In this document: positions 25,547 to 53,994 of the stretch, piece after piece
Layout: every line of letters starts with the position of its first letter
How positions within the stretch are numbered: position 1 is the first letter of the stretch
Source of the DNA: Rodentibacter genomosp. 1
Lineage (GTDB): Bacteria > Pseudomonadota > Gammaproteobacteria > Enterobacterales > Pasteurellaceae
Reading direction: 5' to 3'
NCBI RefSeq assembly: GCF_001999285.1
Contig: NZ_MLHN01000002.1
Location: 62,001-126,000 of the forward strand
DNA length: 64,000 bases
Notes under the pieces: generated by a model
The model's input: the letters and a program-made list of their open reading frames with translations, nothing else
What the model was told of the DNA's origin: nothing
The model's database searches: none
Program-made: the position numbers and the translations under genes

Positions 25547-26365
25547 TTAGAAGAAACGTCCGTCTGCTTCGGCTTTTTCGCCCGCCACTAAAGGGCGTTC
25601 GGTATAGTCGGCGGATGGCGTTTGTTCAAGTTGGGTAAACTTGCTTTGAATCGCTTCTTGGGTTTCTTGCATTGTGGCAAATTCCGCTTTTTGTTTTTCA
25701 AAATCGGCAGAAAGTGCGGTCAATTTTTCCAAGTTTTCTTTGGTTTGCTCGGCAAGCAATTCGATGGATTGTTCATGCACGGCAAAACGTTCATCATCGG
25801 ATTTTTCTTTTTTAGCGAATAATCCTTTGATTTTTTCAAGAATGGATGGAGATTTTTCTGCTTCTTCCACAAACTCTAATTCGGTTTCAATGGCGGCGGT
25901 GAAAAGGTTATCTGCTTTTAATTTGCGTGAATTTAATCCGTTGTGGGAAAAGGAAAGCATTTCCGTGCCAAGGCTTGCCGGATTGTCTGTTACTGCTAAT
26001 CCGACTAAATAGGCTTTGCCGGTGTCGGCAAAATTGGTGTCGATTTCCACGGAGGTATAAACTTTTTGCCCCGCCTGATTGAGCTTAATCAAACTTTCCG
26101 TTGGGATGATTTCGGCTAATAATTGCAATTTACCGTCTTCACGTTTTTGAGTTTTCAACGCAATTACATCACCGAAACAATGCGCATTTGGCATATCTTC
26201 AAAAAATAGGGTGAATTTGATGTGATCTAAGTTAATGCGTGCGCCGTAAGTATTTTTCGGATCATAGCTTTCAGCCATTTCCTCAATCCACTTACGCTGA
26301 ATTTCACGACCATCTGTGGTTGCGCCTTCTGTTGCAACGACAAACCATTTTGATTTTTTTGGCAT
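25547..26365 (-). CDS. O: Capsid scaffold and protease O (P2 gpO-like)
   Basis: A 272-residue protein. The protease half (about 1-150) has GATTDGREIQRKWIEEMAES, ARINLDHIKF with the likely catalytic histidine, and KVYTSVEIDTNF with the likely serine. The C-terminal half is an alpha-helical scaffold (ENLEKLTALSADFEKQKAEF). It shapes the procapsid and cuts N, Q and itself. First gene of the leftward head-lysis-tail operon, 186 bases after the BRO gene. Confidence 0.9.
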   Translation of the reverse strand: MPKKSKWFVVATEGATTDGREIQRKWIEEMAESYDPKNTYGARINLDHIKFTLFFEDMPNAHCFGDVIALKTQKREDGKLQLLAEIIPTESLIKLNQAGQKVYTSVEIDTNFADTGKAYLVGLAVTDNPASLGTEMLSFSHNGLNSRKLKADNLFTAAIETELEFVEEAEKSPSILEKIKGLFAKKEKSDDERFAVHEQSIELLAEQTKENLEKLTALSADFEKQKAEFATMQETQEAIQSKFTQLEQTPSADYTERPLVAGEKAEADGRFF

Positions 26366-26510
26366 GGGTTATCCTTTCAAAGGTTGATGTTGCGCCCATT
26401 CTGAAAGACTTTTCACGCCCGTGCGAGTGCTTGCCATTGTTGCATTGCGTTTCACAAATCGCCCCGAAAGACGATCGCACTTATCCTTTCTACTATGGCA
26501 GGCAAGAAAA

Positions 26511-26542
26511 AACCGCTCCTGAGTGCTAGCAAAAGAGCGGTT
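26511..26542 (-). terminator. Terminator of the BRO antirepressor gene
   Basis: AACCGCTC (26511-26518) and GAGCGGTT (26535-26542) pair with a 16-base loop; leftward the stem is followed by TTTTTTCTTG. It lies ten bases after the BRO stop and isolates the gene from the O promoter. Confidence 0.8.
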
Positions 26543-26551
26543 AAATTTGAA

Positions 26552-27181
26552 TTAGATTTCGTTGTTCAGATAACGGTTGAGATGTCGCCATTGTTCCGGA
26601 TTGTCCCTTTGGAGGCTATCCAACAATTTTTTAATTCGCGGTTTAGCAGTTTTATAAATCCGTTTGTATTCTGTGACACAGCCATACACTTTTGGCGCAA
26701 ATGGTGAATCTAACAATGCGAGTGGTTTATATAGATTTTCCAGTAAGAAACGCATTTTTTCATGAGAGAACAGCAACCACACTAGGTTATTAATATCTTG
26801 TTGGGAAAAAGATTGTGTGTAAGTGGGGGTTGGCATTGGTAAGGTTGCTTGGCTGATGTGGTATTTCCCCGTTTTGCGGATTTGCGGTAGTACTTCTTCA
26901 AATACCCAGTTTTGAAACTCCACTGCTTCAGCTTTGTTGGAACGGAAAATAATGCGGTAGAGGTTGGGTTCGTTGATAAAGGTGAGTTCTTGTTTTCCAC
27001 CGTTTGTAAGGGTTGCAATTTTATTGTACCCCTTCTCATTCAAGCGGAATGATTCAGCACTTCTACGATTTACACCTAATACTTCGCAAACATCGGATAG
27101 GCAGAAATACGGTTCATTGTTGAATGATTGAATACGAACTAGAAAAGATTTGAAATTGAAAGTAGAAATCTGAGTTGTCAT
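26552..27181 (-). CDS. BRO-family phage antirepressor-like protein
   Basis: A 209-residue protein with an N-terminal BRO domain: FNNEPYFCLSDVCEVLGVNR, SFRLNEKGYNKI and AEAVEFQNWVFEEVLPQIRK are signature blocks. The C-terminal half (about 125-209) is helical and not recognised. BRO/Ant proteins bind DNA or repressors and can lift immunity. Its leader holds a C4-like RNA fold (27220-27295), and the start codon region (AATAACGAA) can pair with a loop of it. A strong promoter inside a dyad lies 220 bases upstream. It sits in the O-P interval, not a place of an antirepressor in P2. Confidence 0.82.
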   Translation of the reverse strand: MTTQISTFNFKSFLVRIQSFNNEPYFCLSDVCEVLGVNRRSAESFRLNEKGYNKIATLTNGGKQELTFINEPNLYRIIFRSNKAEAVEFQNWVFEEVLPQIRKTGKYHISQATLPMPTPTYTQSFSQQDINNLVWLLFSHEKMRFLLENLYKPLALLDSPFAPKVYGCVTEYKRIYKTAKPRIKKLLDSLQRDNPEQWRHLNRYLNNEI

Positions 27182-27219
27182 TTCGTTATTCCTTTTGATG
27201 GAAATCCCAAAAATTGGGC

Positions 27220-27295
27220 GGTCGAGAGCTCAAAACTCGTAACGAATCGAGCGGAGTTATTCCCTTACGGTGTTGTATTCCTCGCACTCTCGACC
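27220..27295 (-). ncRNA. C4-like antisense RNA element upstream of the antirepressor
   Basis: On the minus strand an outer stem GGTCGAGAG/CTCTCGACC (27287-27295 with 27220-27228) encloses GTGCGAGG, CCGTAAGGGAATAAC and the hairpin CTCG-8-CGAG. From memory this arrangement matches the phage P1/P7 C4 antisense RNA class, which represses antirepressor genes. The loop TTCGTTA can pair with TAACGAA at the BRO start codon (27180s). The match to the published consensus is recalled, not computed. Confidence 0.6.
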
Positions 27296-27402
27296 ATTGA
27301 ATAAAATTGTTGTTTTTTGACCGCACTTTTTGCGGATACAAAAAAATCACGCTGACGGGGTGAATGACCGTTCGTTATAAGGCTTTTGAGACCTTGGAAC
27401 AA

Positions 27403-27438
27403 ATCCTACCCTTAACAATGTGGATTGTCAAGGGTAGG
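27403..27438 (-). promoter_or_regulatory. Promoter inside a 34-base dyad, driving the C4-BRO unit
   Basis: On the minus strand TTGACA (27426-27431), a 17-base spacer and TAGGAT (27403-27408) form a near-consensus promoter. The same bases form an inverted repeat with 13-base arms (27405-27417 and 27426-27438, one mismatch), so the promoter is likely an operator too. It could alternatively act as the terminator of the HicB-like gene just upstream. Confidence 0.6.
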
Positions 27439-27450
27439 GGGAGACTACAC

Positions 27451-27891
27451 CTATTGATCCGAGTGGGCGTAAAGTTCTCGGTGAGCAGCTATAGCAAAGA
27501 AATCATCACGGCTTTTATAAATGCTCATTGCGTTGATACGGCGATCAATGCGTTGTAGCAAATAATCGGGTACATTGATTTCTATTTTGTGCTTCGCTTT
27601 GAGATAAGGTGTGATGTCAATATCAACGAGTAGCCAGCTATCAACGTGAGCATATTCAGGATCACTTTGGTAATGGTGGTAGCCTTTATCCAAAATGGAG
27701 GTGATGTCAAAATCTTCTTGTGCCATGGTTTGTAGGCTTAATTGGATGGATTCGCTGACCATTGCGTGAAGCTCACCGATTTCATCGGCAGCACTGATAC
27801 CGCCCCATTTGAGTTCGTAGAGTGCTGGGACGATCATGCCGTAAGCGGTATCTTCGTTATTTGGTGTTTCAACACCAACGGTAAAGATCAT
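27451..27891 (-). CDS. HicB-like antitoxin without adjacent own toxin
   Basis: A 146-residue protein of the larger HicB-like antitoxin type: MIFTVGVETPNNEDTAYGMI with VPALYELKWGGISAADEIGE, then a C-terminal ribbon-helix-helix-like region (EINVPDYLLQRIDRRINAMS). No HicA gene is directly next to it; the hicAB pair upstream has its own HicB. It may be an orphan antitoxin or a DNA-binding regulator for the dyad at 27405-27438 just downstream. Length and blocks look intact. Confidence 0.75.
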   Translation of the reverse strand: MIFTVGVETPNNEDTAYGMIVPALYELKWGGISAADEIGELHAMVSESIQLSLQTMAQEDFDITSILDKGYHHYQSDPEYAHVDSWLLVDIDITPYLKAKHKIEINVPDYLLQRIDRRINAMSIYKSRDDFFAIAAHRELYAHSDQ

Positions 27892-32895: not shown

Positions 32896-33255
32896 CTACG
32901 CCTGAATCAGCACATCGGCACTAATCCCCATTTGTTGGTGGATTTTACGGATCATATTGAGCGTTAATGGACGTGTACGATTAAAGACCTCATAAACTCG
33001 ATTTGGTTTTCCTATCGTGTTTTCCAAGTCTTTAATCGCCAAACCTTCTTGCTCCATTCTAAATTTAATTGCTTCAATTGGATCAGGCAAATCTACGGGA
33101 TAATGCTTCGCTTCATAGTGTTCAATTAAGGTGAGCATTACATCAAAAAAATCGGCTTCTTCTTGAGAAAAGTTTTCTTTATCAAAGAAAGGTTCAACCG
33201 TTTTTAAAGCGGCTTGATAGTCTTGTTCATTACGAATAGGTTTAATTTGATACAT
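32896..33255 (-). CDS. higA: HigA antitoxin
   Basis: A 119-residue protein beginning MYQIKPIRNEQDYQAALKTV with an N-terminal toxin-binding region and a C-terminal XRE helix-turn-helix (LAIKDLENTIGKPNRVYEVF with NRTRPLTLNMIRKIHQQM). Typical HigA of the HigBA type. It follows higB with nine bases between and probably represses the operon through the palindrome at 33601-33615. Confidence 0.88.
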   Translation of the reverse strand: MYQIKPIRNEQDYQAALKTVEPFFDKENFSQEEADFFDVMLTLIEHYEAKHYPVDLPDPIEAIKFRMEQEGLAIKDLENTIGKPNRVYEVFNRTRPLTLNMIRKIHQQMGISADVLIQA

Positions 33256-33263
33256 AGCATTCC

Positions 33264-33566
33264 CTAATTTAACTCAATTTCATTGACGTTGATTTTATCG
33301 TATTCGGTATGTATACTAATAAATTTGATATACACCGAACCAAACTGAAAGGCAATCGCTACAACTAATCGGTGATCATTGCCTTTTATATTAAACACAA
33401 CACGGCGATTTTTTAAAATACTAGCAGATTTATATTGCGCCTTAATTTCGTGTGCATTCTGCCAATTCGCTTTCCTCACTTCCGCAATCCACGCTTTGAG
33501 TGCTTGCTCTGCATCGGGGTGCTTTTCCCAATATGCAACAAGTGTAGAGATTGAAATAATCCGCAT
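33264..33566 (-). CDS. higB: HigB toxin (HigB-like mRNA interferase)
   Basis: A 100-residue protein starting MRIISISTLVAYWEKHPDAE with LKAWIAEVRKANWQNAHEIK, VFNIKGNDHRLVVAIAF and FISIHTEYDKIN, the signature of the HigB_toxin family. It cleaves mRNA at the ribosome. AAGGAA precedes the start. First of the two-gene operon at the prophage-host border; the second ribosome-dependent toxin in this window after the tail-region cassette, but of a different subfamily. Confidence 0.9.
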   Translation of the reverse strand: MRIISISTLVAYWEKHPDAEQALKAWIAEVRKANWQNAHEIKAQYKSASILKNRRVVFNIKGNDHRLVVAIAFQFGSVYIKFISIHTEYDKINVNEIELN

Positions 33567-53472: not shown

Positions 53473-53625
53473 TGGATTTGAGTAACATCTTATAAATAAG
53501 ACAACGTCACATTGATGATTAATTAGTCACACTTTAAAACCTCAGTGTTAAATGCCTTGAATTAATAAATGCAAAATTTTTACCTTAAGTAGAGTAATTA
53601 TTTAAAAGTGATTCATCTCTATATT

Positions 53626-53653
53626 ATTTAACATAATATACATTATGCGAAAC
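53626..53653. other. dif: Chromosome dimer resolution site dif
   Basis: Read on the minus strand: GTTTCGCATAA (XerC arm), TGTATA (centre), TTATGTTAAAT (XerD arm). The XerD arm and centre are identical to E. coli dif, and the XerC arm differs only in its outer bases (GGTGCGCATAA). XerCD recombination here separates chromosome dimers at the septum. It marks the replication terminus region. It lies in a 670-base gene-free interval between the ferritins and sbcB. Confidence 0.93.
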
Positions 53654-53994
53654 TAGTTATCGGGTGAGCGGAAACTACGGATTAAGAAAATCACAGACTT
53701 ATGCACAAGTCACAGATACTACTTAAACAGGACAAATAAAGTGATTTTTAAGCGTTGTAACGGCTTTCTGAAATGTTTTATTGACTATGCTGAATAATTT
53801 GTCATCAGAATGTAAAGATTCTTGGGATTATGTTTTATGAGGAATTAAGATTTTGTTTTTCAGCGGGTTTGAGAAAGATAGAAAGATATTTAGCGATTTT
53901 TAAGCGACTTGTTTTTCTATTTGAGTTTGTTACCCACTAAAAAAGCATATTCATCATTGAATATGCTTTTCTTATATTGTTATGTTGTCACGAA
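53654..53994. other. Intergenic region between dif and sbcB
   Basis: No gene recognised. It contains two copies of GATTTTTAAGCG (about 53734 and 53894) and, at its right end, the sbcB terminator. Confidence 0.5.
53941..53970 (-). terminator. Terminator of sbcB
   Basis: AAAAGCATATTCA and TGAATATGCTTTT form a perfect 13-base stem with a 4-base loop and T-runs on both sides, 25 bases past the sbcB stop. Confidence 0.9.

Follow-up and report, generated by a model that had tools for sequence, protein, structure and literature searches.

The unit described here lies on the minus strand within a P2-like prophage in the 64-kb stretch of DNA that was analyzed (the window). Its antirepressor-type gene (26552..27181, start codon ATG at 27179-27181) encodes a protein of 209 amino acids in which a Pfam scan found Bro-N (E value, 1.4e-20) and P22_AR_C (E value, 5.4e-17), as expected from the BRO gene proposed in the preliminary description of this DNA. 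Behind the gene, at 26507..26542 on the same strand, where a terminator had been proposed, the sequence shows a repeat that resembles a terminator and has a run of T. The unit is flanked on one side by GpO scaffold and P2 capsid genes and on the other by terminase and portal genes (Phage_GPO, Phage_cap_P2, Terminase_6N/6C/5, Phage_portal, and Phage_term_smal), the gene set of a P2-like prophage. A gene for a HicB-like antitoxin (27451-27891, minus strand) adjoins the unit on its upstream side, next to the promoter. Elsewhere the window carries a HigB-type toxin gene (33264-33566, minus strand), behind which lies a small gene (32896-33255) that matched no Pfam family, and an Rfam match to the Aggregatibacter sRNA JA03 (53588-53761, minus strand; 49.9 bits, cut-off of 44).

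The gene is preceded, 30 nucleotides (nt) upstream, by an RNA of the sRNA-Xcc1 family (RF02221; 27212..27295, minus strand). It was detected by cmscan with 66.4 bits against a cut-off of 53 and an E value of 8.5e-10 over 64 kb, and the match extends over positions 1 to 87 of the 87 in the model. The preliminary description had read this element as a C4-like antisense RNA and had named the Rfam C4 model as the check. A permissive covariance scan with that model (RF01695; cut-off of 45 bits) returned zero matches at an E value of ≤10 in 26360-27460, and a C4 search of the bacterium's own genome at the same threshold gave matches from which this place is absent. Membership in Rfam C4 is rejected for lack of an RF01695 score, and the family is RF02221 instead; what stands of the C4-like reading is the two-site antisense pairing at the start of an antirepressor-type gene, which the pairing tests below support. 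The covariance model R1, in turn, had no match at an E value of ≤0.001 in five C4 loci (L006 to L010).

The architecture of the RNA is of the C4 type, with an outer stem, two inner hairpins, a segment b' that forms the second loop, and then a segment a'. The outer stem of 9 bp (27287-27295 with 27220-27228), the GTGCGAGG and CCGTAAGGGAATAAC elements, and the position about 107 bases past the −10 box were all found as previously pointed out. Segment b' is the loop of hairpin 2, ATTCGTTA (27240..27247, minus strand), and a' is the linker TTTTGAG (27229..27235, minus strand). Recognition by RNase P requires RCC, and a GCC at 27217..27219 directly past the outer stem may serve as such a signal. 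An RCC no more than 2 nt from the end of the outer stem is present in 186 of 204 loci outside the Xanthomonadales versus 5 of 41 within them, where 35 of 41 copies have a TCC tail rather than RCC; this position is consistent with cleavage of the RNA by RNase P. Among 43 distinct Pasteurellaceae RNAs, that of the window included, 95.3% of the cells are paired, compared with 26 to 43% for slid versions of the structure, a figure that leans upward because the alignment was fitted to the structure. Two-sided changes occur at 19 of the 22 pairs (shuffled mean, 14.3), including all nine pairs of the outer stem. The covariance score and E value, together with two-sided changes that keep the structure in relatives, therefore place the RNA beyond chance.

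Upstream of the RNA, a promoter with the −35 box TTGACA (27426..27431) and the −10 box TAGGAT (27403..27408), separated by 17 bases, lies inside a dyad of 34 bases (27405..27438, minus strand), as stated in the preliminary description. The arms of 15 bases (27424-27438 and 27405-27419) differ by a single G/A, the predicted RNA fold has −22.7 kcal/mol, and the repeat score is 14.3 versus 7.6 for the best of 15 shuffles. The promoter is followed by three minus-strand parts that the preliminary description had not pointed out. These are the leader site a1 (CTCAAAA, 27384..27390), which sits in the loop of a small hairpin and is complementary to a'; the leader site b1 (TAACGAA, 27371-27377), which is complementary to b' and runs into CGG (27368-27370), the whole spanning 27368..27377; and an intrinsic terminator with seven T (27340..27363). 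The order of the unit is thus promoter, a1, b1, terminator, RNA, a2, b2, and gene.

The sites a2 and b2 are the targets at the start of the gene. The a2 site (TCAAAA, 27193..27198, minus strand) overlaps the ribosome-binding site AAAAGG (27191-27196), and b2 (TAACGAA, 27182..27188, minus strand) is immediately 5' of the ATG. The loop ATTCGTTA contains the 7-base complement of b2, so that the complementarity noticed earlier between the hairpin loop and the start codon region is present, with seven contiguous pairs for b' and b2; the pairing of a' with a2, of six contiguous pairs, is an additional element. When 2,000 shuffles were scored, the matches seen in the window were reached by 24 for b2, 74 for a2, 30 for b1, and 25 for a1. 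The full duplex of the RNA with the start region was reached by 39 of 500 shuffles and that with the leader by 11 of 500. The match between loop and target is modest at this single locus, and its strength comes from the relatives.

Loci were gathered through similarity of the RNA alone. The family search gave a match at an E value of ≤0.001 in 69 of 140 Pasteurellaceae genomes (66 over the family cut-off), and a match in 26 of 369 genomes of the class (12 over the cut-off). Further loci were taken from the matches listed in a search of public contigs, genomic and viral, for an exact core pattern; the non-Pasteurellaceae, viral, and Xanthomonadales counts rest partly on this pattern scan and hold among the matches listed. 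A covariance model built from alignment A2 was run on 296 of the 316 loci and on the window and retrieved 301 RNAs, of which 297 had enough flanking sequence and 207 were non-redundant. The scan passed over L005, L041 to L048, and L317 to L336, and also L090, L128, L132, L134, L139, L142, L153, L156, L178, L188, and L276 as apparent repeats. The addition of 38 loci from 40 further Pasteurellaceae regions brought the total to 245, of which 15 are without an open reading frame. The start-region test comprised 209 loci, 171 of them outside the Xanthomonadales, with a region of at most 48 nt and a criterion of at least six contiguous Watson-Crick pairs. The start codon was picked by a score favoring a Shine-Dalgarno string and ATG, and the swapped controls used the identical regions. 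The taxon groups of named loci were assigned by hand.

Among the matches listed, b' pairs with the start region of its own downstream gene over at least six contiguous bases in 155 of the 171 loci outside the Xanthomonadales (65 of 71 in Pasteurellaceae, 56 of 61 in viral loci, and 34 of 39 in the other loci), while RNA-target pairs swapped between loci reach this length in 13.8, 8.0, and 8.7% of cases, respectively. The sums over own pairs are 497, 422, and 261, against permutation maxima of 343, 281, and 184, so that none of the 2,000 permutations per group reached the observed value. Segment a' reaches six pairs or more in 67 of 71, 47 of 61, and 20 of 39 loci (swaps, 24.6, 13.0, and 8.5%), and its own-pair sums are likewise above all permutations in the three groups. 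The b2 site lies at a median position of −16 to −9, the start codon follows the RNA at a median distance of 39 nt, and a2 precedes b2, the order known from C4, in 120 of the 121 loci with both sites. A b2 match of six is missing in 16 of the 171 loci and an a2 match of six in 37; in the first test, nine loci (five viral and four other) had no b match of at least six on either side. The 245 loci contain 184 distinct b' segments, as expected for specificity in cis.

This joint variation can be followed in close relatives, where compensatory changes had been named as a check and are indeed found. One of these (L337) is 76% identical to the window over most of the O-P interval. It and four others (L338, L339, L340, and L345) retain the dyad promoter, the leader terminator, and the RNA with differing b' loops, and in each of the five both b1 and b2 are altered to fit its own b', the b2 match being 6 nt in L338. 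There are exceptions: the leader b code of L351 differs from its RNA, the b matches of L355 are weak, and in L371 the first of the RNA copies is without a matching site downstream. The genome from which the window comes has four RF02221 copies with different b' codes, each matching its own start over 7 or 8 bases versus at most 6 elsewhere, and their a' segments partly cross-match. The same genome also carries Rfam C4 RNAs over the cut-off (L007, L008, and L009) that show similar copies of their targets in the leader and in the start region, the leader copy in L009 being less clear by eye. Six loci (L022, L024, L269, L316, L367, and L371) contain two or more copies of the RNA within some 100 to 1,600 bases. 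Named phages contain the RNA as well, without annotation: between q and ant in Aaphi23, 5' of the annotated Ant gene in Pmp1, and 5' of a hypothetical gene in Pmp14.

Pfam families were assigned to the proteins encoded behind the RNA, with counts that overlap because a single gene may match several families. The 75 Pasteurellaceae genes gave Bro-N (29), P22_AR_N (18), KilA-N (18), AntA (7), and P22_AR_C (34). Among the matches listed, the 66 viral genes gave AntA (14), KilA-N (12), Rha (11), ORF6N (9), Bro-N (7), and P22_AR_N (4), and the 43 genes of the other group gave Rha (5), ORF6N (4), SymE (4), Bro-N (3), KilA-N (1), and AntA (1). The four SymE-like genes preceded by the RNA (L051:627-824, L074:1255-1452, L075:1053-1247, and L049:411-608) have downstream matches of 7 to 8 for both a and b in the first three and of 7 for a and 5 for b in L049. 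Judged from its position and pairing, the RNA at these genes is a candidate antitoxin RNA of the C4 type.

The leader sites recur in all five groups of loci, given here in the order Pasteurellaceae, viral, two other groups, and Xanthomonadales. A b1 match of at least seven is present in 67 of 77, 45 of 75, 12 of 24, 14 of 24, and 39 of 41 loci. A run of at least five T within 75 nt of b1 follows in 67 of 67, 37 of 45, 10 of 12, 9 of 14, and 38 of 39 of these, compared with fractions of 0.50, 0.29, 0.11, 0.24, and 0.06 for control intervals farther upstream. The CGG that follows b1 is present in 151 of 177 loci, and at b2 the corresponding count is 0 of 129. In the best fold of the leader in the window, b1-CGG is paired with bases of the terminator. 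Blocking b1 and CGG in the fold raises the computed probability of the terminator, in Pasteurellaceae (n = 62) from 0.33 to 0.63 and in viral loci (n = 37) from 0.46 to 0.68; this is weak evidence for attenuation because blocking bases can only remove competing folds; a control block ten bases upstream gives no rise (0.32 and 0.40, respectively). The Xanthomonadales leader terminator is computed to form with a probability of 0.88 unaided. When the part of the leader 5' of the terminator was shuffled, the value in Pasteurellaceae was 0.31, about equal to the native 0.33, and there was little or no difference outside the Xanthomonadales, with the CGG part lying mostly inside the unshuffled piece. 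The modeled folds suggest that the RNA may attenuate its own transcript.

The Xanthomonadales copies stand apart. Among the matches listed, neither a' nor b' matches the start region (0 of 38 for each), and in a wider region of 112 nt downstream a b match of at least seven occurs in 2 of 41. Their loops match the leader instead, in the 39 of 41 non-redundant copies with b1 given above. Most of these loci (e.g., L078, L098, and L110) consist of a promoter-like box, a1-b1, a terminator, the RNA, and a gene without a Pfam family; the 41 genes behind the RNA included one SymE and no other family at an E value of ≤0.001. Action of these RNAs in trans on the start sites of the other groups was considered and rejected, with 2 matches in 7,093 pairs, a rate below that of the other groups.

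Taken together, the locus is best read as a cis-encoded C4-type antisense switch built on an RNA of the sRNA-Xcc1 family in a P2-like prophage, with a probability of roughly 0.87. A single transcript from the dyad promoter would contain the leader with a1-b1, the intrinsic terminator, the RNA, and the antirepressor-type gene. Excision of the RNA from this transcript would presumably involve RNase P, cutting next to the outer stem on its 5' side. The RNA would then pair with the mRNA through a' at a2 and through the loop b' at b2, masking the ribosome-binding site as well as the bases that precede the start codon. With these covered, the gene would be silent in the lysogen. Pairing with a1-b1 in the leader would remove the competing b1-CGG fold and favor the leader terminator, so that the RNA, if the predicted folds hold, would shut off its own transcript as well. 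When the transcript outruns the RNA, as may happen in a new infection or on induction, the protein would be made and, from its families, would interfere with a phage repressor. The 209-amino-acid protein may inactivate a phage repressor and bring about an override of immunity, and the gene behind the RNA is probably an awakening signal for dormant viruses.

The dyad admits a further reading, in which it is an operator through which a phage repressor exerts the main control and the RNA adds a second layer. Such an arrangement has a precedent in phage P1, where C1 and C4 provide two layers of control. The palindromic arms span both the −35 and the −10 boxes and would suit an operator, but a half-site with at most one mismatch has no second copy in the window or elsewhere in the genome. 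A promoter was called in 66 of the 67 Pasteurellaceae loci with b1, and the best inverted repeat there has a mean score of 7.8 versus 5.3 when shuffled, exceeding all 15 shuffles in 32 loci. A repeat score of at least 8 across the −35 box is found in 29 of the 66 loci with a promoter, including the window. By eye, 21 of these 29 resemble intrinsic terminators (a G+C arm, then T), as if the terminator of the upstream gene were fused to the promoter, which speaks against an operator; the other 8 are of the TAGGAT/TAGGAC type seen in the window, with a weak T tail and with arms that co-vary (CCC/GGG or CGC/GCG), as an operator might. By a lenient measure applied with a script (4 of 8), 28 of the 29 strong repeats are followed by a T-rich stretch. 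The operator reading is accordingly unlikely, and in the dyad a terminator-like hairpin belonging to the upstream gene has probably been joined to the promoter of the unit.

Two other explanations concern the RNA itself. It might be a cis-acting mRNA leader whose fold governs access to the start codon without a separate RNA, since the RNA and its target lie on one stretch with the start codon close behind and intramolecular pairing is possible. Against this, a second copy of both sites lies upstream, ahead of a terminator, in many loci of each group. RCC is maintained after the outer stem in the great majority of loci outside the Xanthomonadales, sRNA-Xcc1 from Xanthomonas gives one band near 100 nt (as far as described in the consulted part of PMC2996969), and the P1 C4 RNA, which has the same layout, is a processed RNA according to the excerpted text of PMC5320573. 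A leader of this kind is thus very improbable. Slightly less probable still is that the RNA is a trans-acting sRNA for virulence or host adaptation, with its position before antirepressor genes being secondary. The part of PMC2996969 consulted describes an 88-nt sRNA-Xcc1 in Xanthomonas, defined by RACE, with many predicted targets and a role needing further work, and that of PMC12189769 reports homologues in vesicles of Xylella with predicted bacterial and plant targets; the failure of the Xanthomonadales loops to match the next gene's start agrees with this. Against it, the 155 of 171 loops outside the Xanthomonadales that match their own next start are far above the swapped pairs, and b' varies locus by locus, with its 184 distinct forms.

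The antisense switch set out above would assign a specific phage function, the silencing of antirepressor genes and of some SymE genes, to a catalogued RNA family that has so far been discussed as an sRNA linked to virulence in plant pathogens. Its two-part pairing code can be read and could be used to predict mutual repression of antirepressors among prophages. The switch also suggests how the leader in the classical C4 arrangement might act by attenuation, and for the Xanthomonas copies it points to their own leader, before distant mRNAs, as the first place to seek targets. The mechanism and the RNA family are each known, and the link between them appears new in the open-access literature searched, where sRNA-Xcc1 was never found together with the terms antirepressor or anti-repressor.

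Among known systems, the closest is the C4 RNA of phages P1 and P7 (RF01695), which shares the outer stem, the two inner hairpins, a' and b', the pair of target sites at the start, the upstream pair with a terminator, and the operon with an antirepressor. The P1 C4 locus (L006) has the same order of promoter, a1, b1, terminator, RNA, a2, b2, and gene. It differs in its conserved core, and the RNA described here has no RF01695 covariance match. In P1, C4 acts through icd, whereas here the blocked start is that of the antirepressor-type gene itself. As far as the accessible text of PMC5320573 shows, RNase P matures P1 C4 to about 77 nt, and the RNA works through its a' and b' loops. In the same part of that paper, the C4-homologous sRNAs of Acinetobacter baumannii have the C4 shape with variable target segments and are apparently processed from longer transcripts; they differ in matching the Rfam C4 motif, and possible targets are suggested for them.

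The window RNA matches the sRNA-Xcc1 model (RF02221) in full. This RNA was reportedly placed under HrpG/HrpX control in Xanthomonas by Chen in 2011. It has been described from Xanthomonas and its integrons as a trans-acting RNA; here it lies in a prophage, with phage structural genes on both sides, and matches the start of the next gene. The available portion of PMC12444791 states that it is activated by regulators of the type III secretion system and that it precedes symE in the integron cassette most widespread in Xanthomonas. The portion of PMC12189769 that was available lists sRNA-Xcc1 and C4 antisense RNA as separate annotations. In Xylella fastidiosa De Donno it places a C4 RNA and an sRNA-Xcc1 RNA on the same strand at a distance of about 230 bases, and in strain Temecula1 it places five sRNA-Xcc1 copies about 380 bases from one another, clusters that could be arrays of such switches.

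Control of SymE by RNA is also known from the type I toxin-antitoxin system SymE/SymR, to which the four SymE-like genes outside the Xanthomonadales bear a likeness; SymR is encoded opposite symE, according to the part of PMC1891008 consulted, whereas the RNA here lies upstream on the same strand. These comparisons permit a broader proposal, which is tentative and carries slightly less than even odds: RF02221 and C4 would both belong, as separate sequence families, to a single broad class of portable antisense switches. Each would have its own pairing code, silence the next gene at its start, and end its own transcript early by pairing with b1-CGG in the leader and thereby freeing an intrinsic terminator. 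Starting from phage antirepressors, the class would have extended to SymE toxins, and in the Xanthomonadales it would have been reduced to leader control alone.
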